Part shown: positions 3,439 through 38,819 of the stretch, piece after piece | How positions within the stretch are numbered: position 1 is the first letter of the stretch | Layout: every line of letters starts with the position of its first letter | Assembly (NCBI GenBank): GCA_009703455.1 | Contig: WLGB01000007.1 | Location: 1 to 42,678 of the forward strand | Direction of reading: 5' to 3' | DNA from: Actinomycetota bacterium | Lineage (GTDB): Bacteria; Actinomycetota; Actinomycetes; Actinomycetales; Microbacteriaceae | DNA length: 42,678 nt | Translations under genes and position numbers: made by a program | Notes under the pieces: generated by a model | What the model was told of the DNA's origin: nothing | The model's input: the letters and a program-made list of their open reading frames with translations, nothing else | Database searches by the model: none

Positions 3439-4731
3439 ATGCCTCCGATCAAAGTTGTCTTTCTTGGCCTCTATTTCGAGGCTTGGGACGCTTTGGATGA
3501 GATTTATCAGCTGATGCTGGACGATGACCGGTTTGAACCGGTGGTTATCTCCTTACCTCGGAAACTAACTGGACAACTCAGATACGACGATGAGGCCAAG
3601 GCCCATGCCTTCTTTGAATCACGCGGAATTGAGCACACTCGCTTTAATTTCGGGGGAACCAACAGTCAAAACAGAGAGGTTTTGGCCAAGCTCAAGGAAA
3701 TGGCTCCGGATTACGTGTTTGTGAACTACCCTTGGCAGCGAAACTATCAGCCAGCTCTTCGCTTTGATGAGCTGGTCCAGTTCACCAGACTGGCTTACGT
3801 TCCATATTTCTCTCTTGTAATGGTTGATGAACCAGACGATGAACCAGGGGGTGGGCAACAAGGTTCCCTCGTTGCCACTCATTTGTACAAGCAACGACTT
3901 CATCAGTTGGCTTCATTAGTTTTCACTCAAGACAAACTTGTCTTAGGCGCGTATTCATCCACTGAGCGCGGAAATTCCTATGTTCACTTTTTTGGATCTC
4001 CCAAGATTGACTATTTGCGCAAAGAAGCTGAAGAGGGCGTCGCGAGTTGGCCCATTGCGGGAGAAGGATTCAAGGTGGTTTGGGCACCACACCACTCCTA
4101 CTCCCCGCATTGGCTCAACTTTGGTGTCTTTTCCAAGATAAAAGATCAGATGTTGGATTTTGCTAAAGCCAATCCAGACATCCAAATTGTTTTGCGTCCC
4201 CATCCTTTTTTGTGGGGAACACTTACAGATAGAAAAGTCTTGTCCAATGATGAACTAATCACCTGGCGAGAAGCTTGGGGTGAACTACCTAACACTTTTG
4301 TAGATGAGGACGGTTCTTACGCTGAGCTGTTTTTAGCAACCGATGTCCTTGTGACGGATGGAATCTCATTCCTTGGTGAATATCCCCTGGTTACGGGCAA
4401 GCCGACAATCTTTTTTGAAAACCAAGGTCACTGGCGGTTCACTAAAACAGGAGAGTTGGCAGCCGCGACGTCGGTTCGGGTCAAAACTTTCGATGAGCTG
4501 AAGGGCACCATTGTTGAAGCCCGTGAAAGTGGCCTCCCGGCCAAAAAAATTGAGATTCAAGAGCTTGTCGAGGCATCGGCGCCTTTCCCGGGGCAAGCTG
4601 CAAAGCTCATTGTGAACCAAGTTTTTGAGGACTTTGCAGGGCCTAAAGGGCCCTCACCGCTCGTTGATTCTTCAAACATTAAAGAGATTGCTTGGGAACT
4701 AACTCCAGGTAGAGAGCCGTTCGAAGACTAG
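3439..4731 (+). CDS. CDP-glycerol glycerophosphotransferase-like protein
   Basis: This 430-residue cytoplasmic protein resembles the C-terminal GT-B catalytic part of TagB/TagF-type teichoic acid polymerases. Key stretches are VVWAPHHSYS (~213-222), RPHP (~253-256), and DGSYAELFLATDVLVTDGIS followed by FLGEYPLVTGKPTIFFEN (~291-328). These correspond to the His-containing and phosphate-binding loops of the family. The N-terminal half (residues 1-190) is the other Rossmann-like lobe. No membrane segment is seen. It stands alone, with no teichoic acid export, polymerase or CDP-glycerol synthesis genes nearby, so the acceptor is unknown. It may build a glycerol-phosphate polymer or modify a glycolipid. 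No clear Shine-Dalgarno sequence precedes the ATG. Confidence 0.75.
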   Translation: MPPIKVVFLGLYFEAWDALDEIYQLMLDDDRFEPVVISLPRKLTGQLRYDDEAKAHAFFESRGIEHTRFNFGGTNSQNREVLAKLKEMAPDYVFVNYPWQRNYQPALRFDELVQFTRLAYVPYFSLVMVDEPDDEPGGGQQGSLVATHLYKQRLHQLASLVFTQDKLVLGAYSSTERGNSYVHFFGSPKIDYLRKEAEEGVASWPIAGEGFKVVWAPHHSYSPHWLNFGVFSKIKDQMLDFAKANPDIQIVLRPHPFLWGTLTDRKVLSNDELITWREAWGELPNTFVDEDGSYAELFLATDVLVTDGISFLGEYPLVTGKPTIFFENQGHWRFTKTGELAAATSVRVKTFDELKGTIVEARESGLPAKKIEIQELVEASAPFPGQAAKLIVNQVFEDFAGPKGPSPLVDSSNIKEIAWELTPGREPFED

Positions 4732-4743
4732 GGAACTTAGCTC

Positions 4744-5835
4744 TTACTCGTCTTCCGTTGGACTCGGACTTGGGGCCTTTGGTGACTCAATCGTGATCTT
4801 CGAAGGCCCGGCCATTAGTTCTACCCAGGTGTTTCCAACCGCAAGTTTGATTGGGGCACCGGCTTCGTCAACAAGTTGAATTGGAGCTGACTGAGAGGAC
4901 TTAGTCCAGGTTCCCTTTACTCTCTTGCCGTTACTAAAGACCCAAGCGACGCCTGAGTCAATCATCACAGTTCTTGGAATTGGGCCATATTTTTTGTCAA
5001 TGAACGAATTATCGACCTTGGTCTTTAGGACAACAACGTTGGTGGCTCTCAGGATTTCGTCGGTGGCAGCATCGATGTGCTGGTCACCGTCTTGGGTTCT
5101 GACCCAGTAGTTTCCTTCTGGCTTCCAAGAGCTGATGGCTTGCGGGTACTTCACCGTAAAGCTCAGGGTTTCTTCTCCTGCTTCAGTGGAGGCTATCTCG
5201 TAGCTTTCTGTCTCAGGATCAAAGGCAACCATGGTAAGCATCGGCTGCGGAGCTTTTTTGTCTAGGTGCTGAGACTGAAGAAGTCCAACATCAACCATGA
5301 CGTTGTGTGGGGCTTGACGGGTAGAAAGTCTTGAGAAACTTCCCAAGTTGTCTGCTTGTTCGCTAGTTTCGCTGGCCATATATTGACCAGTTTCTTTCAC
5401 AGCGTTCACAAAAGGTAGTTGTCCACCGGAGAAGCAAAAGATTCCTGCAAGTGGTGCTGTGATATCAGCATCCATTGGACGCACTGATCTCACCGGACCT
5501 GCTTGATCAACTGGCTGCGACTGCCAAACGGCAACGAGTCTGGTTAAACCAAACTCGACCATCTCAACAAAAACGATGTCGGTTTTGTTGAGGTTAAACT
5601 GTGGTCTTGCTGCCTCGACGTTATCAATCTTGCAGGCTACCGATGGCAAACCAAAAGTCTCTGATCCAGCAGAACCCTCCTCGAGAGTTTCTCCAGTCAG
5701 AGGGGCTGAAACGAAGACCTTGGCTTCTGGTGTTGGCTCGACCGGAACTTCATCTTTTCTGGGCTCTCCGCACCCCGCCAACAGCAAGGTAGAAGTTGCA
5801 AGCAGGGCTAAGGACTTCAGGATAGTTTTGTTCAC
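4744..5835 (-). CDS. DUF3048 domain lipoprotein (YerB-like)
   Basis: This 363-residue lipoprotein has a signal peptide ending in the lipobox LLAGC (Cys22) and then a Pro/Glu-rich linker. The rest matches the DUF3048/YerB family: an N-terminal domain with ARPQFNLNKTDIVFVEMVE and AGPVRSVRPMD (about residues 75-130), and a C-terminal half ending in a Ser/Pro-rich tail. The family is usually anchored on the outer face of the membrane; no biochemical role is established that I can name. The start codon is GTG. The gene begins 19 bp after the upstream dehydrogenase on the same strand and may be cotranscribed with it. It ends convergently, 12 bp from the CDP-glycerol-transferase-like gene. Confidence 0.88.
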   Translation of the reverse strand: MNKTILKSLALLATSTLLLAGCGEPRKDEVPVEPTPEAKVFVSAPLTGETLEEGSAGSETFGLPSVACKIDNVEAARPQFNLNKTDIVFVEMVEFGLTRLVAVWQSQPVDQAGPVRSVRPMDADITAPLAGIFCFSGGQLPFVNAVKETGQYMASETSEQADNLGSFSRLSTRQAPHNVMVDVGLLQSQHLDKKAPQPMLTMVAFDPETESYEIASTEAGEETLSFTVKYPQAISSWKPEGNYWVRTQDGDQHIDAATDEILRATNVVVLKTKVDNSFIDKKYGPIPRTVMIDSGVAWVFSNGKRVKGTWTKSSQSAPIQLVDEAGAPIKLAVGNTWVELMAGPSKITIESPKAPSPSPTEDE

Positions 5836-5854
5836 GGCTCTATTCTGTCTCTTG

Positions 5855-7333
5855 TTAGCTAATCATCGGGTCAGCAATGCCGACATAAACAGTTTCCAAG
5901 TATTCTTCAATGCCCTCGGAGCCGCCTTCGCGGCCAAGGCCGGAGGCCTTGACTCCGCCAAATGGAGCTGCCGGGTTGGAAATAACTCCAGCGTTTAGCC
6001 CGAACATTCCAATCTCGAGTCTTTCGGCAAGGCGAAGACCACGGTTTAGATTCTGGGTGAAGGCATAGGCAATCAGTCCATACTCGGTTGAGTTCGCAAG
6101 CTCTACGGCTTCGTCCTCGGTCTTGAAGGTAATCACAGGCGCCACTGGACCAAAGATCTCTTCTTTGAGAATTTCAGCGTTTGCTGGAACATCGGCCAAG
6201 ACAGTTGGTGGGTAGAAATAGCCATCGCCTTCTGGGACGACTCCTCCAGTTAGAACTTTGGCTCCCTTCGCAACCGCATCTGCAACAAGCGCGTGAACGC
6301 TAGCTCTACTCTTTTCGTCAATCAGAGGACCGATGTTGGCGCCTTCTTCGGTGCCTCTGGCAACTTTTAGTGCCGCCATCTTGGCAGCAAACTTTTTTGA
6401 AAATTCTTCTGCAACGGATTCGTGAACGATAAACCTATTGGCAGCGGTGCAAGCTTCTCCCATGTTGCGAAGCTTTGCGAACATAGCGCCCTCTACTGCT
6501 TTGTCCAAATCGGCATCCTCGAAAACTAGGAACGGTGCGTTTCCGCCAAGCTCCATCGACGTGCGAAGCACTCGATCAGCTGAGTCTGCAATAAGTCTTC
6601 TTCCCACACCGGTGGAACCGGTGAATGAAAGCTTGCGCAATCTTTCATCCTTGATGATTGGTCCCGTGACTTCTCCTGCGCGGGTAGTTTGCACCACGTT
6701 GATAACGCCCTTAGGCAAACCAATTTCTTCCATGACTTTGACGAACAGCATTGAGGTAAGCGGGGTCAAGGCGGCCGGCTTTAGAACCATGGTGCAGCCG
6801 GCAGCTATCGCAGGCGCCATCTTTCTAGTTGCCATTGCAAGTGGGAAATTCCAAGGAGTAATAAACAGTGATGGGCCAACTGGCTTTTTTAGAACCATAA
6901 TTCTGTTTTTGCCATCAGGAGCAGTTCCGTAGCGGCCAGTGACTCTTACTGCCTCTTCGGAGAACCAGCGCAGGAACTCGGCTCCGTACGCTACTTCTCC
7001 TTTGGCTTCGGCAAAGGGCTTTCCCATCTCCAATAACATCACCAGTGCAAACTCATCTGCCATGGAAGTTACTTTTTCAAAGGCAGCACGCAGCATCTCA
7101 GCACGGTCACGAGGAGCGGTCTTGGCCCAGGCTTCCTGGGCGTTGTGGGCAGCCTCGATTGCGGCCATTCCATCGGCTGGGGCGGCATCGGCAATCGAGA
7201 CTAAAACCTTGCCGGTTGCAGGGTCAATCACATCTAAAGTCTTTTTGTCCGCCGAGTCTTTCCACTGGCCATCAATGTAGATCCCACGGGGGACTAGGTC
7301 TAAAACGCGCTTTTCATCCTCTGGAGAAAACAT
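5855..7333 (-). CDS. gabD: NAD(P)-dependent succinate-semialdehyde-type aldehyde dehydrogenase
   Basis: This aldehyde dehydrogenase (492 residues) probably oxidises succinate semialdehyde to succinate, the usual assignment for this subfamily. Visible landmarks are the oxyanion Asn in TPWNFPLAM (Asn162), the cofactor loop FTGSTGVG (~238-245), the general base Glu261 in MELGGNAPF, and the catalytic Cys295 in MGEACTAANRF. The C-terminal pattern FGGVKASGLGREGG is typical of the group. Length is normal. A purine-rich AAGGAAAG precedes the ATG. No GABA transaminase is nearby, so the substrate is inferred from family resemblance. A 15-bp palindromic sequence lies in the upstream gap (7392-7406) and could be a regulator site. 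Confidence 0.85.
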   Translation of the reverse strand: MFSPEDEKRVLDLVPRGIYIDGQWKDSADKKTLDVIDPATGKVLVSIADAAPADGMAAIEAAHNAQEAWAKTAPRDRAEMLRAAFEKVTSMADEFALVMLLEMGKPFAEAKGEVAYGAEFLRWFSEEAVRVTGRYGTAPDGKNRIMVLKKPVGPSLFITPWNFPLAMATRKMAPAIAAGCTMVLKPAALTPLTSMLFVKVMEEIGLPKGVINVVQTTRAGEVTGPIIKDERLRKLSFTGSTGVGRRLIADSADRVLRTSMELGGNAPFLVFEDADLDKAVEGAMFAKLRNMGEACTAANRFIVHESVAEEFSKKFAAKMAALKVARGTEEGANIGPLIDEKSRASVHALVADAVAKGAKVLTGGVVPEGDGYFYPPTVLADVPANAEILKEEIFGPVAPVITFKTEDEAVELANSTEYGLIAYAFTQNLNRGLRLAERLEIGMFGLNAGVISNPAAPFGGVKASGLGREGGSEGIEEYLETVYVGIADPMIS

Positions 7334-31572: not shown

Positions 31573-32865
31573 TCACCCCTTGGAGTGATGGATTTGACTC
31601 TCGGAGGGCTTGTTTCCGGTGGACGCATGGGCTGCCGCAATTGCCCTTTTGCCAGCAGGCAGCAAAACCGCCACAGTTGCTATCAATACAGTCAGTACTC
31701 CGGTTGAAATCAACAATTCCTCAACAGGAACGATATCCGCAAGGGGGCCAAGGATTGCCATGCCTAGGGGCATTGCAACTGCCATCACAATTCCGACGAA
31801 ACCAAATACTCGTCCCTGACGCTCTGGTTCAACGGTTTCTTGTAACAAAGTCATGGCTGAGGTTGAGAATGCTGGAACTGCCAGTCCAATTAGGAAAAAC
31901 AGTACGTAGAAGACAATCAGGTTCGTTGTCAGCCCTTGGCCAATTGCCAACACTCCAAAAAGAATTGACGTTCCGATGATCATGTTTAGACGATCCAGCT
32001 TGGAACCGAAAGTAGCCATAAGCACACCTCCTATAACCATGCCAACACCAAAGGACAGCTCCAGAGCTGTCAGCAACCAAACCTCGCTACCGAAATTTCT
32101 AACAAGCATCAAGGGCGCAAGATTTGAGGGAGCAACAATTAGAAAGAATACGATGCCAAATATCGCCATTACCCAACGAACTAAGTCATGGCTAAAGATG
32201 TAACTTAGTCCCTCTTTCATATCTGAAAAGTAGGAAGGCTTTTCTGAGCTTGCAGCGCGGGCAAGTGTTGGTACCGCAATTGTTGCAAGTAAGGAGACTC
32301 CGATTATGGCTGTCAACACATCAATAAAGAGGATTGCAACCAGCGACATCGTTGAGTAAACCGCTGCTGCAGCAACCGGGGCCAGAAGTCCTAGTGAGGA
32401 TTGGATGCTGCTGTTTATTCCGTTGACTCGCATCAATTGATCGGTCGGAACAATTTGTGGCAACAGTGCCGAAATTGCTGGCATCTGGACGCCAGCGCCA
32501 ATTGACCTTACGGCCATAACTAGAAAGATAAGCCAGAGGTCATTAACACCGGACAGCATGAAAAATGCCAAGCCCAAAGTTGAAAGAGCAATCACCGTGT
32601 CTGAAATGATAATCATCACCTTGCGATTTACTCGATCCGCCCACACCCCAGCAAAAATAGAAACGATGGCCTGGGGCAAGAAGCCAAAGACTGCGGCCAG
32701 GGCCAGAATCACTCCAGATTTTGTAGTTAGCGTCAGGTGCCAAATAATTGCGTACTGAACTAAGAACGATCCAAAAGTTGAAACTGTTTGGCCTACGAGG
32801 AAAACAGCGACTTTGTTTTTCCACGCGGGCATCTGACCACGTGCCAGTTCGGTAGGGGTTTCCAT
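31573..32865 (-). CDS. MFS transporter (MFS_3/MefA-like exporter type)
   Basis: This 430-residue, 12-helix major facilitator protein has the starting pattern FLVGQTVSTFGSFLVQYAII and the loop motif GVWADRVNRKVMIIISD, which are typical of the macrolide/siderophore exporter branch. The substrate is unknown, and membership does not by itself imply resistance. AAAGGA lies 9 nt before ATG. It starts 75 bp after the homocysteine methyltransferase gene on the same strand and ends facing the LacI gene. Confidence 0.88.
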   Translation of the reverse strand: METPTELARGQMPAWKNKVAVFLVGQTVSTFGSFLVQYAIIWHLTLTTKSGVILALAAVFGFLPQAIVSIFAGVWADRVNRKVMIIISDTVIALSTLGLAFFMLSGVNDLWLIFLVMAVRSIGAGVQMPAISALLPQIVPTDQLMRVNGINSSIQSSLGLLAPVAAAAVYSTMSLVAILFIDVLTAIIGVSLLATIAVPTLARAASSEKPSYFSDMKEGLSYIFSHDLVRWVMAIFGIVFFLIVAPSNLAPLMLVRNFGSEVWLLTALELSFGVGMVIGGVLMATFGSKLDRLNMIIGTSILFGVLAIGQGLTTNLIVFYVLFFLIGLAVPAFSTSAMTLLQETVEPERQGRVFGFVGIVMAVAMPLGMAILGPLADIVPVEELLISTGVLTVLIATVAVLLPAGKRAIAAAHASTGNKPSESQIHHSKG

Positions 32866-34114: not shown

Positions 34115-34603
34115 ATGGCTGATTCCTCATTCGACATCGTAAGCAAAGTTGACCCGCAAGAAGTTGCAAACGCCCTGAACCAGGCTTCTAAGGAAGTTGA
34201 GCAGCGCTATGACTTCAAGGGCGTTGGTGCCTCCATCGAGGAATCTGGTGACAAGATCCTTATCAAGGCCAACAGCGAGGAGCGAGCGAAGGCAATTCTT
34301 GATGTCTTTCAATCAAAGCTCGTAAAGCGCGGAATTTCTTTGAAGAGCCTCGATGATGGAAAACCCTTCGCCTCAGGCAAGGAATTCCGAATCGAATGCA
34401 AAATAAAAGAGGGAATCTCTCAGGAGCATGCCAAGAAGATCAATAAAATCATTCGCGACGAAGGACCTAACAGCGTAAAGTCGCAGATTCAAGGGGATGA
34501 GCTTCGCGTCAGCAGCAAATCTCGCGATGATCTTCAGGAGATTCAGTCTTTGCTAAAGAGCAAGGATCTAGAGGTCGACGTTCAGTTTGTTAATTACCGC
34601 TAG
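34115..34603 (+). CDS. yajQ: YajQ-family nucleotide-binding protein
   Basis: This 162-residue protein of two ferredoxin-like repeats belongs to the YajQ family, some members of which bind cyclic di-GMP. Typical sequence is [27 protein letters not shown] at ~36-42, the middle [19 protein letters not shown] and the end DVQFVNYR. Its cellular role here is unknown; no diguanylate cyclase is seen in the window. It overlaps the opposing SnoaL-like gene by 14 bp at the 3' end. Confidence 0.95.
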
Positions 34604-34985
34604 ATGGCGATAGGTGCTCATGCACCGCAATCCAGCCACCAGATTTTTTCTCAAAAACAATTGTCTCTTTCTCGAAAACCGTTGAGCTCTCCCCTGTCAA
34701 TTCAACAACTGTTTCGACTTCATGGGTAAAAACTGCGGAGTCTTCTCCCAGCATCTGAACATCCTGGTTGGACGATCTGCAGGAATGAACTCGAAATCCG
34801 TCGTCGGACTCCCAGCTATCCCAAAGTTTTTCGTACTCGCTCCTGGATGCCAGCCGAACGGGATGTGTGTAAAAGATGAATGTCGCAGCTTCCGAAAAAC
34901 CGGAAAAATAGTCCTGTTTGTTGTGGGATCCGAAATCAGACACGATTTTTGCAGCCGCAGCTAGCACCTGTTCCTTGGAAGTCAT
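34590..34985 (-). CDS. SnoaL/NTF2-like small protein
   Basis: This 131-residue protein has the cone-shaped NTF2/SnoaL-like fold pattern: a helical N-terminus ([16 protein letters not shown]), aromatic [29 protein letters not shown] and a C-terminal sheet ending [16 protein letters not shown]. Such proteins act as small hydrolases, isomerases or binding partners, and the function cannot be told from the fold. Its ATG overlaps the ureohydrolase stop (ATGA), so it is coupled to that gene and probably serves the same pathway. Confidence 0.8.
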
Positions 34986-35959
34986 TTAGTCCCTTTCTTT
35001 TTCGCCATCATGGTGATCAGGTCATAGGCCAGGTGAGATGCGGCAATAGCGGTTATCTGAGCGTGATCATAGGCTGGAGCCACCTCCACGATGTCGGCGC
35101 CTATCAAGTTGACCTCATCGAGACTTCTGATAATTCGAAGCAGTTCTCTGCTGGATAATCCTCCTGCTTCAGGAGTGCCGGTTCCGGGGGCAAAGGCGGG
35201 ATCCATTACATCAATATCGATTGACACATAAACTGCCCGGCCCTTGACTTGCTCAAGCATCAGCTCAATTACCGCCTCAATTCCGATTTGATCCATTTCA
35301 GTTACGTGCACTGCTCTAAACCCCATAGACGCATCATCAGGAAGATCCTTGGCTGAATAGAGTGGTCCGCGAATGCCAATATGTAGGCAGCCATCAGCAT
35401 CTAAGAGTTTTTCTTCACTAGCCCTTCTAAATGGTGTGCCGTGAGTGTAGTCAGCGCCAAAGTATGTGTCCCAGGTGTCCAGATGGGCATCAAAGTGAAT
35501 GACAGCAATTGGACCATGGACTTTGTGTAGTGATCTAAGGATTGGCAACACTATTGTGTGGTCGCCACCTAAAGTTATCGGTTTAGCTTTTTGGTTCAGG
35601 ATCTCATCCATGCCCGATTCAATTTCGGCTAGAGCCTCGTCAATGTTGAATGGATTAACTGCAATGTCGCCGGCGTCAACAACCTGAGCCAAAGCGAATG
35701 GCTCGGCGTCTTGGGCCGGGTTGTATGGGCGAAGCAATCTAGATGCTTCTCTGATGTGAGCCGGCCCAAATCTTGCACCTGGACGATAACTGGTTCCAGC
35801 GTCAAAGGGAATTCCCACAACAGCAATGTCAGCACTTTTGACTTGGTCAATTCGGGGCAACCTTGCAAAGGTTGGTGCCCCGGCAAACCGGGGCACCACC
35901 GTTGCGTCAACTTGTCCGACAACGTCTCCGTTAGTATCTCTTGGTTCGACGTTCGACAA
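34982..35959 (-). CDS. Ureohydrolase (agmatinase/guanidinobutyrase family)
   Basis: This 325-residue di-manganese hydrolase cleaves urea from a guanidino compound. Metal ligands are readable: His134 (GGDHT), Asp157/His159/Asp161 (HFDAHLDTWD) and Asp248/Asp250 (SIDIDVMDP). THGTPFRRA replaces the region that sets substrate size. Features such as the PRFAGAPTFARLPR start and REASRLLRPYNP resemble guanidinobutyrase/guanidinopropionase-like proteins more than arginase. Agmatine, guanidinobutyrate, guanidinopropionate or even guanidine are possible. It lies 13 bp after an NCS1 permease and before a SnoaL-like protein, rather than next to polyamine genes, which argues for a catabolic role. Confidence 0.85.
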   Translation of the reverse strand: MSNVEPRDTNGDVVGQVDATVVPRFAGAPTFARLPRIDQVKSADIAVVGIPFDAGTSYRPGARFGPAHIREASRLLRPYNPAQDAEPFALAQVVDAGDIAVNPFNIDEALAEIESGMDEILNQKAKPITLGGDHTIVLPILRSLHKVHGPIAVIHFDAHLDTWDTYFGADYTHGTPFRRASEEKLLDADGCLHIGIRGPLYSAKDLPDDASMGFRAVHVTEMDQIGIEAVIELMLEQVKGRAVYVSIDIDVMDPAFAPGTGTPEAGGLSSRELLRIIRSLDEVNLIGADIVEVAPAYDHAQITAIAASHLAYDLITMMAKKKGTK

Positions 35960-35972
35960 ATTTATTTCCTAA

Positions 35973-37472
35973 CTATTTTGTTATTGGTGGAACAGAAGCC
36001 TTGCGGGCACGAACCAAACGTGGTCCCTTTGGACCGTATACGTAGTCTGGCTCCGGGAAGATCAGCAGTGCTCCAATGTAAAGCACCGCCGCTGTTCCAA
36101 TCGCAACAATCAAGCTGAGGTCTATTCCTCCAGCTACACCACTCAAGGCACCTTCAATAACCGGTGGGAAGTAGGCAAACTGAAGGCCAAGAACTGCGGC
36201 AACAATCCAGGCAACCATTCCGCGCCAGTTGAATCCGGACTGGAACCAGTAGCGGCCACCCTTCTTCTGCTCGTTGAACACCTGTAGGTCAGTAGTTTCG
36301 TAGTGGCCACGACGAACAAAGTATCCAATTGCCATGATGACCATCCACGGCGTGGTGGTCACAACAATCGCACCAATGAAGGCATTTACCGATCCAAGCA
36401 GGTCAAAGAATAGACGCCCTCCGAGGATGAATAGGAATGCGACAAGTCCAATTGCGATTGTTGCCTGCACTCGGCTAAGTCTTGGAAATACCGACGAGAA
36501 GTCTAGGCCTGTTCCGTAAAGCGAGGTTGTACCAGTTGATAGACCACCAATAAATGCGACCACCATCAACAACACTGCATACCAAAGCGGTGAAACCTGA
36601 ATCAGACCAACGATGTAGTCGGTGTCACCGGCCACCAAAGTTGCGGTTGCAACACCAAACAGGAATGGGATCAAGGTTGCAAGCTGCCCTAGGAAGGTGG
36701 CTCCCATCAGACTTGAGCCTTTTGTGTTCTTTGGAATGTAACGGCTCCAGTCCCCAAGGAAAGCTCCAAAGGAAATTGGATTACTCATAACAATCAGTGC
36801 CGAAAGAATAAAGGTTGGCCAGAACGAACCAAGAGCGTATTCGCCACCGGCGTAGCTTGCGTCAAACACTCCGGCAAAGGCAACAACCGCAAGGAGCATC
36901 AGGATACTATTCGCGATTACCGCAGTTTTGTTAACTAGCAACATGAACTGGTAACCGAACACAACGACGATAATTACGATTGCCCCGATAAGACCATAAA
37001 TTACTGCGCGAAGTAGTTGCGAATCTTCAACGCCAAACAATCGAACGAGACCTCCAACTAGAGCGTCGCCTCCGACCCAAACAGAGATTGAGTAGAAAGC
37101 AACGGCTGTTAAAAGGCTCAAGAAAGATCCAGCGACACGGCCGCGGACTCCGAAGTGTGCGCCGGATGAAACCGCGTTGTTAGTTCCAGTTTTCGGACCA
37201 AACAATCCCATTGGCATCAGGAAGAAGGTTCCAACAAGCAGACCTAGGATTGTCGCTCCCACTGCCTCCCAGAAAGATAGTCCGAGCAAAATTGGGAAGG
37301 TTCCGAGTAGAACTGTGGCGAAGGTGTTTGCTCCACCGAATTGGATTCTAAACAGATCGAAGGGTTTCGATGTTCTGTCGGCTGCCGGAATTGTTCCGAT
37401 ACCGAAGTTTTCAATTTCCGTTGGTTTTGGCTTGGGATTTAGTGCTACGTTCCCCGAATCAGTTGAGCTCAT
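35973..37472 (-). CDS. NCS1-family permease (cytosine/allantoin/hydantoin transporter type)
   Basis: This 499-residue 12-helix cation symporter belongs to the NCS1 family, which imports nucleobases and cyclic ureides. The N-terminal FGIGTIPAADRTSKPFDLF followed by IQFGGANTFATVLLG is typical of the actinobacterial branch, as is FGPKTGTNNAVSSGAHFG in the first loop. The natural substrate is unknown. It is the first gene of an operon with a ureohydrolase and a SnoaL-like protein and is divergent from a cyclase-family hydrolase and an XRE–cupin regulator. GAGAGG lies 7 nt before the ATG and a TTGCAC-N17-TAGCAT promoter precedes it. Confidence 0.88.
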   Translation of the reverse strand: MSSTDSGNVALNPKPKPTEIENFGIGTIPAADRTSKPFDLFRIQFGGANTFATVLLGTFPILLGLSFWEAVGATILGLLVGTFFLMPMGLFGPKTGTNNAVSSGAHFGVRGRVAGSFLSLLTAVAFYSISVWVGGDALVGGLVRLFGVEDSQLLRAVIYGLIGAIVIIVVVFGYQFMLLVNKTAVIANSILMLLAVVAFAGVFDASYAGGEYALGSFWPTFILSALIVMSNPISFGAFLGDWSRYIPKNTKGSSLMGATFLGQLATLIPFLFGVATATLVAGDTDYIVGLIQVSPLWYAVLLMVVAFIGGLSTGTTSLYGTGLDFSSVFPRLSRVQATIAIGLVAFLFILGGRLFFDLLGSVNAFIGAIVVTTTPWMVIMAIGYFVRRGHYETTDLQVFNEQKKGGRYWFQSGFNWRGMVAWIVAAVLGLQFAYFPPVIEGALSGVAGGIDLSLIVAIGTAAVLYIGALLIFPEPDYVYGPKGPRLVRARKASVPPITK

Positions 37473-37515
37473 TGGCTACCTCTCTGGATTTGGCTTCTGC
37501 ATTGAAGTTGGCTAA

Positions 37516-37544
37516 ATGCTAGACCTAACTTGCCTCCTGTGCAA
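37516..37544 (-). promoter_or_regulatory. Promoter of the NCS1–ureohydrolase operon
   Basis: TTGCAC (37539-37544), a 17-bp spacer and TAGCAT (37516-37521) on the minus strand lie 43 bp before the NCS1 ATG. The -35 hexamer sits close to the divergent cyclase start, so a regulator bound in the 84-bp gap could control both directions. Confidence 0.5.
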
Positions 37545-37556
37545 TAGTTCTTGACT

Positions 37557-38225
37557 ATGGAGATAGTTCGTGTCGTAGATTTATCGCACTCAATCAATGC
37601 CAACACCCAGGTATACCCCGGCGATCCAGAGCCAAAACTGGCCATTCACAGCACAATTGCCAAAGATGGCTTTAACTTGCTGAGTCTTCAAATGGGCTCC
37701 CAAACCGGTACCCACGTTGACGCCCCATACCATTTCGACGAAGACACCGAACGCATAGATCAGCTACCCCTCGAGAGATTTCTAGGTAGAGGAGTTTTGA
37801 TCAATGCAACCGGACTTGAACCACGAACAAGCATTAGCTGGGAAATGATTGAGGCTGATGCTCAGGACATAAAAGCCAGCGATATCGCACTGATACACAC
37901 TGGTTGGAGCAAGTACTTTGGCACCGACAAGTACTTTGACCACCCATTTCTTTCAGGCGATGCCTGTCAGCGGCTTTTGGATAAAGGTGTGATGGTGTTT
38001 GGCATTGACGCCATAAACATCGATGAGACTCCGGATGACACTCACCCAGGCGTTGGGTTCCCTTGCCACCATTTGATTGCAAAAAAGGCTGGGGTCATTA
38101 GTGAGAATTTGTGTAATTTCGAAGCGATAAATTTTGCTAACCCACTTATTTCACTACTGCCGCTAAAACTTGAAGCTGCGGATGGAGCTCCAGTTCGGGC
38201 TGTGGCAATCGAACTAGCAATCTAG
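37557..38225 (+). CDS. Cyclase-family metal hydrolase (KynB/isatin hydrolase fold)
   Basis: This 222-residue protein belongs to the cyclase/kynurenine formamidase-like family, whose members hydrolyse amide bonds, including ring amides such as isatin. The core motif reads SQTGTHVDAPYHF, so the usual first His of HxGTHxDxPxH is Gln49 while His53, Asp55 and His59 are kept. The C-terminal half has a conserved GIDAINIDE and HxxL region. An ATG at 37557 is preferred over the TTG at 37551. It lies 12 bp before the XRE–cupin gene and is divergent from the NCS1 permease, so the substrate is probably imported by that carrier. No tryptophan-catabolism genes are present. Confidence 0.8.
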   Translation: MEIVRVVDLSHSINANTQVYPGDPEPKLAIHSTIAKDGFNLLSLQMGSQTGTHVDAPYHFDEDTERIDQLPLERFLGRGVLINATGLEPRTSISWEMIEADAQDIKASDIALIHTGWSKYFGTDKYFDHPFLSGDACQRLLDKGVMVFGIDAINIDETPDDTHPGVGFPCHHLIAKKAGVISENLCNFEAINFANPLISLLPLKLEAADGAPVRAVAIELAI

Positions 38226-38237
38226 CAATAATTAGAT

Positions 38238-38819
38238 ATGGCAATTCGACGAGCGAGAAAACCCTCCACTGAACCTACTGTTCAAATTGGCCCGAGGCTT
38301 AGAGCTGGAAGACTAAGTCGCGGACTAACTCTTGGACAAGTTGCGGCAGCTGCCGGACTCACCGAAGGATTTGTTAGCAAGCTAGAGCGTGACCAAGTTT
38401 CTCCATCGGTGGCGTCATTGGTTTCTGTTTGTCATGCAATTGGACTTCGGGTTGGGGATCTTTTTGAACCCCCGGTTAGCAATGTGATACGTGCCGGCGA
38501 AGGATCCTTGATTAACTTTGGCGGAGACAAGGTGAGGGAGTATTTACTCAGCCCGGGAGATCAGTCCCACATCGAAGTGTTGCAGTCAGTTATTGAGCCG
38601 GGCGGCTCAGGCGGTAAAGAGCTTTACGCTCTCAATTGCGAAATCGAATTTGTTCTGGTGATTGAGGGTGCACTTGAAATCCAACTGGGACCAGAAATAA
38701 TCAGCTTGGCTCAAGGCGATTCACTAACCTTCAAAGGCTCGGAGCCGCATACCTGGCGAAACCCATCAAAGACTGACGGCTCCCAAGTTATTTGGGTAAT
38801 GGCGCCAGCCAGTATTTAG
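38238..38819 (+). CDS. XRE-family regulator with cupin sensor domain
   Basis: This 193-residue regulator has an N-terminal helix-turn-helix of the XRE/Cro type (RAGRLSRGLTLGQVAAAAGL, then SKLERDQVSPSVASL, about 20-70) and a C-terminal cupin_2 barrel (~110-193, CEIEFVLVIEGALEIQLGP, TFKGSEPHTWRNP). It is of the same architecture as PuuR and other small-molecule sensors of nitrogen catabolism. It is 12 bp after the cyclase gene and likely controls the divergent NCS1/cyclase promoters. The ligand is unknown. Confidence 0.88.
   Translation: MAIRRARKPSTEPTVQIGPRLRAGRLSRGLTLGQVAAAAGLTEGFVSKLERDQVSPSVASLVSVCHAIGLRVGDLFEPPVSNVIRAGEGSLINFGGDKVREYLLSPGDQSHIEVLQSVIEPGGSGGKELYALNCEIEFVLVIEGALEIQLGPEIISLAQGDSLTFKGSEPHTWRNPSKTDGSQVIWVMAPASI

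Follow-up and report, generated by a model that had tools for sequence, protein, structure and literature searches.

The window, a stretch of 42,678 nucleotides from an Actinomycetota bacterium of the family Microbacteriaceae (contig WLGB01000007.1 of assembly GCA_009703455.1), contains a compact cluster of five genes at positions 34590-38819. The cluster encodes an NCS1-family transporter, a ureohydrolase, a SnoaL-like protein, a cyclase-family hydrolase, and an XRE-cupin regulator (Table 1), and it is considered here as a possible catabolic unit for a guanidino acid. The source genome measures 1.17 Mb and is 84.8% complete.

Open reading frames, strands, and short spacings were confirmed again from the sequence and by domain scans. 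The genes form two units that diverge from 37473-37556: NCS1-ureohydrolase-SnoaL on the minus strand, and cyclase-XRE-cupin on the plus strand. The SnoaL and ureohydrolase genes overlap by 4 bp, and gaps of 13 bp and 12 bp separate ureohydrolase from NCS1 and cyclase from XRE-cupin. The divergent gap between the NCS1 and cyclase genes is 84 bp when the cyclase is read from ATG and 78 bp when it is read from TTG. The preliminary description, made from the sequence alone, had claimed five genes around one 84-bp divergent region with spacings of at most 14 bp. This stands, with spacings within the cluster of at most 13 bp and a divergent region of 78-84 bp.

Table 1. Genes and the divergent region of the cluster, in window coordinates.
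Feature	Position	Strand	Details
SnoaL/NTF2-like protein (SnoaL_3, CaMKII_AD)	34590-34985	-	131 aa; PF13474 38 bits, PF08332 38 bits
Ureohydrolase (PF00491, Arginase family), GbuA-like	34982-35959	-	325 aa, TTG start
NCS1 transporter (PF02133)	35973-37472	-	499 aa
Divergent promoter region	37473-37556	.	holds recurring TTGC-N7-GCAA element at 37530-37544, possible operator
Cyclase-family metal-dependent hydrolase (PF04199)	37551 (TTG) or 37557 (ATG) to 38225	+	224 aa
XRE-cupin regulator	38238-38819	+	193 aa; HTH_31/HTH_3 and Cupin_2

In what follows L denotes a locus and G a genome, with G000 for the source genome. A scan of genome contigs with the ureohydrolase as query, which favours close ureohydrolases, gave 58 named loci. 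All five families occur together with a close NCS1 gene in 13 of them; the other 45 lack this combination. An NCS1 protein at least 65% identical is encoded at 14 loci, of which 13 hold all five families and one (L014) ends at a contig end. The 13 full loci belong to Microcella, Yonghaparkia, and other Microbacteriaceae, to Geodermatophilaceae (including Geodermatophilus and Blastococcus), and to one metagenome-assembled genome of the Actinomycetales.

Each family was also searched for in 150 genomes of Microbacteriaceae, the source genome included. NCS1 is found in 12 (E 1e-60), the cyclase in 45 (E 1e-20), SnoaL in 25 (E 1e-6), and any ureohydrolase in 128 (E 0.001). Within 6 kb of the NCS1 orthologue lie a cyclase in 11, SnoaL in 11, and a ureohydrolase in 9 of the 12 genomes, counting the source genome. 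A crude estimate that assumes uniform placement gives p < 1e-18; it takes no account of relatedness, and the genome that raised the question is among those counted. The grouping of the five families is far beyond chance. Gene order varies among carriers (G141, G076, G139, and G016), and therefore selection on the set is argued. The preliminary description had regarded the five genes as one functional unit and proposed a comparison of neighbourhoods across Microbacteriaceae. The counts within 6 kb bear it out, as does conservation of the set across genera and two actinobacterial families.

One carrier apparently shows decay of the gene unit. In G137 the NCS1 orthologue is split in two (C1:1001295-1002480), SnoaL is found with a distant cyclase about 0.4 Mb away at 1399464-1400545, and the best ureohydrolase is elsewhere, at 2011005. 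Close cyclases (at least 52% identical) occur in 11 genomes, nine times beside NCS1; the other two genomes are G028 and G103.

Across 297 genomes of the order, NCS1 is found in 11, counting the source genome and G141. The nine NCS1 loci from other families are L205-L213, where contig ends leave two stretches shorter than 6 kb and one of 8.4 kb. All five families are present at L205, L206, and L208, and four at L207 (no SnoaL match) and L211 (no XRE match). L212 has three, L209 and L210 have two, and L213 has NCS1 alone.

A second form of the set is seen at L015, L171, and L182. These loci combine XRE-cupin, ureohydrolase, and SnoaL with an NCS1 of another clade (24-27% identity) and a cyclase at 34-37%; L180 is the same without XRE-cupin. 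The carrier and cyclase clades vary between the forms while the families keep company. At L168, L169, L185, and L212, the stretch contains NCS1, SnoaL, and cyclase genes but gives no ureohydrolase match. Further afield, Nonomuraea has a ureohydrolase-NCS1-cyclase set, a Klebsiella plasmid carries a related gene set, and Rhizobium has a related set with a polyamine-type ATP-binding cassette (ABC) transporter and no NCS1 match. On a Peribacillus plasmid (L226:4593-8369), a second-clade NCS1 (38%), a cyclase (43%), and an aldehyde dehydrogenase lie in a row, so the carrier-cyclase pair reaches the Bacillota.

The best relatives of the ureohydrolase in the PDB are guanidinobutyrase, proclavaminate amidinohydrolase, and guanidinopropionase. 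Its six metal ligands (His134, Asp157, His159, Asp161, Asp248, and Asp250) are present in 72 of 72 actinobacterial rows. R77, the equivalent of R72 in GbuA, is likewise Arg in every one of these rows. According to passages of PMC9772407, R72 of GbuA caps the neighbouring site, where a carboxylate contact is possible. The putative agmatinase 4dz4 has Ala at this position, and E. coli SpeB is described in part of PMC8125230 as using Trp68 from the neighbouring subunit, in a cation-pi site that takes the amine of agmatine. The arginine is not universal, since proclavaminate amidinohydrolase has His. At the position of GbuA Met161 the window protein has Tyr166, and Tyr is again found in all 72 rows, including those near arginine-degradation-type genes. 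Work by Lee in 2011 reportedly gave position 161 of GbuA a role in specificity, with Tyr in guanidinopropionase. A guanidinobutyrase in the strict sense has Met there; the window enzyme is not classed as one and would only work like one.

Other ureohydrolases of the group adjoin genes for amine-oxidase-family proteins, carbon-nitrogen hydrolases, and thiamine diphosphate (ThDP) enzymes. These neighbours may be arginine monooxygenase, guanidinobutyramide amidase, and 2-ketoarginine decarboxylase, respectively; the ThDP enzyme of L042 scores 359 bits with the model for the last, below the cut-off of 500. Such neighbours, labelled here as arginine-degradation-type, point to 4-guanidinobutyrate as the substrate. 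The active-site residues examined hardly differ between cluster members and those next to such genes. In a tree whose labels mark the rows with a close NCS1 in the locus, 17 of the 22 labelled rows (window included) form a supported set with one other row (95/99), and the remaining five sit among variant rows. The rows labelled as arginine-type group apart in 21 of 22 cases, with weak support (89/68). Nearest to the window protein are L003, L004, and L178.

The ureohydrolase thus very probably acts on a guanidino acid in the manner of GbuA, and not as a plain agmatinase. A guanidino substrate had been proposed from the start, together with an active-site comparison with guanidinobutyrase relatives. 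The PDB relatives, the invariant arginine, and the gene context agree with that proposal, and the comparison finds the metal ligands and the GbuA arginine kept beside a position 161 of the guanidinopropionase kind.

The closest known arrangement is the gbuA locus of Pseudomonas aeruginosa. In a plasmid record (L215) the order is LysR, speB, an NTF2-family gene, a cytosine permease, a sodium:solute symporter, 5-guanidino-2-oxopentanoate (2-ketoarginine) decarboxylase, and a flavin adenine dinucleotide (FAD) oxidoreductase; the speB protein includes exactly the 302 residues of 3nio GbuA. As in the window, ureohydrolase, SnoaL/NTF2-like, and NCS1 genes are adjacent, and their products are 46%, 47%, and 56% identical to those of the window. 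Unlike the window, this locus has a LysR regulator in place of XRE-cupin and no cyclase match within the 12.9 kb read, and the symporter, decarboxylase, and oxidoreductase follow the core. The gbuA-SnoaL-NCS1 core is an already known arrangement, and the cyclase and XRE-cupin genes are additions to it. The claim that no described pathway has exactly this set needs amending for the three core genes, already adjacent in P. aeruginosa; for the five-gene set, no description was recognised among the papers listed in searches of the open-licence literature, a scope that mostly leaves out subscription papers. These two neighbours of gbuA are presumably PA1420 (SnoaL-like) and PA1419 (the NCS1 carrier). 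For PA1419, the relevant passages of a 2024 screen report no identified substrate (PMC11633122).

The window NCS1 passes PF02133 (182 bits, cut-off 23.5) and scores 91 bits with the nucleobase:cation symporter subfamily TIGR00800, below the cut-off of 353. By sequence or by profile, it has no match in the PDB at E 0.001; at E 10 the only match is one of 50 residues to a copper-ATPase domain (E 0.57). The carrier likely imports a guanidino acid or its ring form, judging from its relatives and neighbours. A comparable importer is known from the metformin cluster metT-metCaCb, where an NCS1-family importer of a guanidine-type compound accompanies ureohydrolase-family enzymes, according to parts of PMC13390362 and PMC11271267. 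In passages of PMC13390362, MetT is an NCS1 protein able to import a linear guanidine compound. The metformin hydrolase is described there as a nickel-dependent enzyme of two subunits with nickel-incorporation proteins, whereas the window has a single ureohydrolase. Nickel-incorporation proteins are absent among the nine window proteins scanned for domains.

The cyclase model (mean predicted local distance difference test score, pLDDT, 83.9) is nearest in fold to isatin hydrolase and related cyclase-family structures in a Foldseek search. Template modelling scores by query length are 0.79-0.81 for isatin hydrolase and 0.72-0.77 for kynurenine formamidase; the other four models have pLDDT 53-71. 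Residues H55, D57, H61, H173, and E185 are kept in 14 of 14 rows. Fold and GTHxDxPxH motif are shared with isatin hydrolase and bacterial kynurenine formamidase, whose known substrates are aromatic. The first His of their motif is replaced: the window protein has QxGTHxDxPxH in place of HxG[T/A]HxDxPxH, with Gln51 in 13 of the 14 rows and His in the second-form cyclase of L015. Passages of PMC4243253 and PMC6117287 describe this His as a metal ligand in isatin hydrolase and KynB. With the KynB model TIGR03035 the cyclase scores 91 bits, below the cut-off of 223. The cyclase may be a ring-amide hydrolase.

Close cyclases (58-60%) also lie at L166:6463-7137 and L167:6775-7461, in genomes without an NCS1 orthologue and with only a 23% match kilobases away. 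They adjoin a gene for aspartate aminotransferase type Ic (named in L166), and a metallophosphoesterase gene is two genes off.

The SnoaL protein is invariant at Y26, W55, C69, H88, E105, E107, H122, E123, and H124 across 15 rows from three bacterial classes. Its model has pLDDT 96.8, and the top fold matches are CaMKII hubs. H88, E105, E107, H122, and H124 fall on predicted strands, with pairs two residues apart that would share one face, and the invariant residues may line a cavity. The protein is probably a small enzyme or binding protein. A shared gamma-hydroxybutyrate pocket with CaMKII-alpha was considered and is not supported: the fold fits, yet Ile109 and Leu125 stand where CaMKII-alpha, assuming human numbering, has Arg453 and Arg469. 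Both arginines are pocket residues in passages of PMC12148480.

Control of the two arms may be shared. The XRE-cupin protein is PuuR-like at a distance (58 bits with PRK09943, below the cut-off of 211). Of 15 orthologous divergent regions, 12 have the element TTGC-N7-GCAA with no more than one mismatch (five exact, seven with one mismatch), by a count made by eye over related rows. The window has four exact matches where 1.7 would be expected, and on its own the motif is therefore weak. It is a possible operator, offered as a lead only. A promoter scan found nothing.

Taken together, the cluster is read, with a probability of about 0.6, as a unit for guanidino-acid catabolism that has the gbuA-SnoaL-NCS1 core as its basis and provides uptake, ring opening, urea release, and divergent control. 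The conserved unit is real, and its guanidino-acid hydrolase core is well supported. NCS1 would take up a guanidino compound, either a linear acid or a cyclic lactam, and the cyclase would hydrolyse the ring amide to the linear acid. SnoaL might, more speculatively, perform a step on the same compound, perhaps interconversion of ring and chain or of tautomers. The ureohydrolase would then very probably release urea from the guanidino acid and leave an amino acid; the most likely reaction is 4-guanidinobutyrate to gamma-aminobutyrate (GABA), which the GABA transaminase of the genome could use. XRE-cupin would control both arms from the shared divergent region. The substrate is likely 4-guanidinobutyrate or its lactam. 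The creatinine-like compound first suggested is not favoured, since the best-supported product line runs from 4-guanidinobutyrate to GABA.

The genome offers some context for this route. Contig 34 encodes a GABA transaminase (683 bits, cut-off 639) and an aminobutyraldehyde dehydrogenase (674 bits, cut-off 615). Within 13 kb of the same contig (L231, 42000-56752) these two genes are joined by further transaminases, as in putrescine-to-GABA breakdown. Urea is probably lost, because urease alpha has no match in the 84.8% complete genome. Coupling to urease was considered and rejected because urease does not track the unit: urease alpha is absent from 10 of 11 same-family NCS1 carriers (source counted, G137 left out) and present in 8 of 9 other-family carriers. 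The 2-ketoarginine decarboxylase model has no match in the source genome at E 0.001 and has matches in 14 of 14 control genomes; acetolactate-synthase-like enzymes may be absent or unassembled. An amine-oxidase-family query finds only a 46-residue match in the source genome. The missing arginine-degradation matches would suit, softly, import of the compound.

At one locus the ureohydrolase seems to be replaced. L169 (contig 44 of G146) has, at 3804-6087, an ADI/DDAH-like gene (PF02274, PF19420) and an M20 gene between XRE-cupin and cyclase-NCS1-SnoaL. The M20 protein belongs with allantoate amidohydrolases and carbamoylases (424.1 bits, just over the cut-off of 424). On a plain reading, the deiminase-like and carbamoylase-like genes would do the work of the ureohydrolase, which fits removal of an amidino group. 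Relatives of the ADI-like gene occur in 4 of the 297 genomes of the order; the loci read are L200-L203 (three genomes), L204 being too short. The M20 relative adjoins the ADI-like gene at L200 and L201 and lies 4-7 kb off at L202 and L203. Nearby are a ThDP enzyme at three of the four loci (L200-L202), an amino-acid ABC transporter at three (L200, L202, and L203), and a GABA transaminase at one (L201). The ThDP enzyme of L200 scores 541 bits with 5-guanidino-2-oxopentanoate decarboxylase (cut-off 500), and all three of these neighbouring families are also met near ureohydrolases. The pair of the L169 type is a possible guanidino-acid deiminase system.

A more specific route is put forward tentatively. 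A gbuA-type NCS1 would import a lactam, the Gln-motif cyclase would open it, the CaMKII-hub-like SnoaL would process the guanidine, and the ureohydrolase, or a deiminase and carbamoylase, would free the amino acid. The idea of a carrier joined to ring opening goes back to the preliminary description and gains indirect support. The cyclase stays with NCS1 and SnoaL without a ureohydrolase at L168, L169, L185, and L212, and on a Rhodococcus qingshengii plasmid (L218:3571-8614) a creatininase-family gene (PF02633, 154 bits) stands directly before a 47% identical NCS1, with major facilitator superfamily (MFS) and arginase-family genes next door.

Several observations weigh against the guanidino-acid unit with a ring step. 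NCS1 and ureohydrolase occur with no cyclase match in mycobacteria (L034, L036, L040, and L059) and in Proteobacteria (L215-L217), and a ring is therefore not needed for the core. In the cyclase the Glu of kynurenine formamidases replaces the signature of isatin hydrolase, and Gln takes the place of the first metal ligand; the relevant part of PMC6117287 leaves open whether this Glu marks activity on linear amides. Close cyclases are present without an NCS1 orthologue in G028 and G103, and both same-genus genomes drawn are without NCS1, cyclase, and SnoaL matches at the family-scan thresholds. The replacement at L169 is seen at one locus only, and G146 still has a ureohydrolase, on a different contig (L214). 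With Tyr at the position of GbuA Met161, a chain shorter than C4 is possible, and the incompleteness of the source genome makes absences soft. If NCS1 imports linear 4-guanidinobutyrate for the ureohydrolase and the cyclase acts on another co-regulated compound, for instance the linear amide 4-guanidinobutyramide, then the cyclase-less loci of mycobacteria and P. aeruginosa and the formamidase-type Glu would be explained. Likewise, on a Thioclava plasmid the ureohydrolase is paired with a permease annotated for cytosine, not detectably similar to the window NCS1, and cyclase and SnoaL are never together in eight plasmid regions around matches to either. Such a division of labour is nevertheless rather unlikely, as the actinobacterial cyclase keeps to NCS1 and SnoaL even at the four loci without a ureohydrolase and recurs with a second NCS1 clade (L015, L171, L180, and L182).

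The ring might instead belong to an alpha-guanidino acid, as in creatinine or glycocyamidine. In the creatininase-creatinase pathway a ring amide is opened, and urea is then released from the guanidino acid. The logic is alike, with cyclase and arginase-family proteins in the window instead; the cyclase would be a creatininase analogue, and the ureohydrolase would release urea from creatine or guanidinoacetate. The Rhodococcus creatininase-family gene fits this, as do the Tyr at the guanidinopropionase position and the M20 enzyme of L169, since carbamoylases and allantoate amidohydrolases are known to act mostly on alpha or beta ureido acids. It is quite unlikely, however: members next to arginine-degradation-type genes barely differ from cluster members in the active-site residues examined, the arginase-family protein of Rhodococcus has only 26% identity, and no creatininase (PF02633) or creatinase-family domain is present among the nine window proteins scanned. 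A plain agmatinase of polyamine metabolism beside unrelated genes is very improbable and was rejected. The ureohydrolase does pass the NCBIfam agmatinase models PRK02190 (311 bits, cut-off 302) and TIGR01230 (247 bits, cut-off 174), and the genome has both enzymes of contig 34. The label carries little weight because the plasmid record gives the annotation speB/agmatinase to GbuA as well, and the guanidino-acid hydrolases among PDB relatives, the kept GbuA arginine, and the conserved context all speak against it.

From the guanidino-acid unit, testable roles follow for the two proteins encoded beside gbuA, the NCS1 carrier and SnoaL. A further suggestion is that guanidino acids are the substrates of an actinobacterial subfamily annotated as agmatinase. 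Should the ring step be correct, a 1.17 Mb genome would contain a new enzymatic way to open cyclic guanidines, and the cyclic route, if true, would parallel the creatininase-creatinase pathway with non-homologous enzymes.

The flanking genes, which encode homocysteine methyltransferase, YajQ, and two MFS carriers, suggest no functional link to the cluster. The convergent yajQ gene (34115-34603) overlaps the SnoaL gene by 14 bp. The MFS carrier at 31573-32865 scores highest with two models, 2A0121 (H+ antiporter) and Mef (macrolide efflux), without reaching either cut-off. The GC content of the cluster is 0.493, compared with 0.500 for the window.

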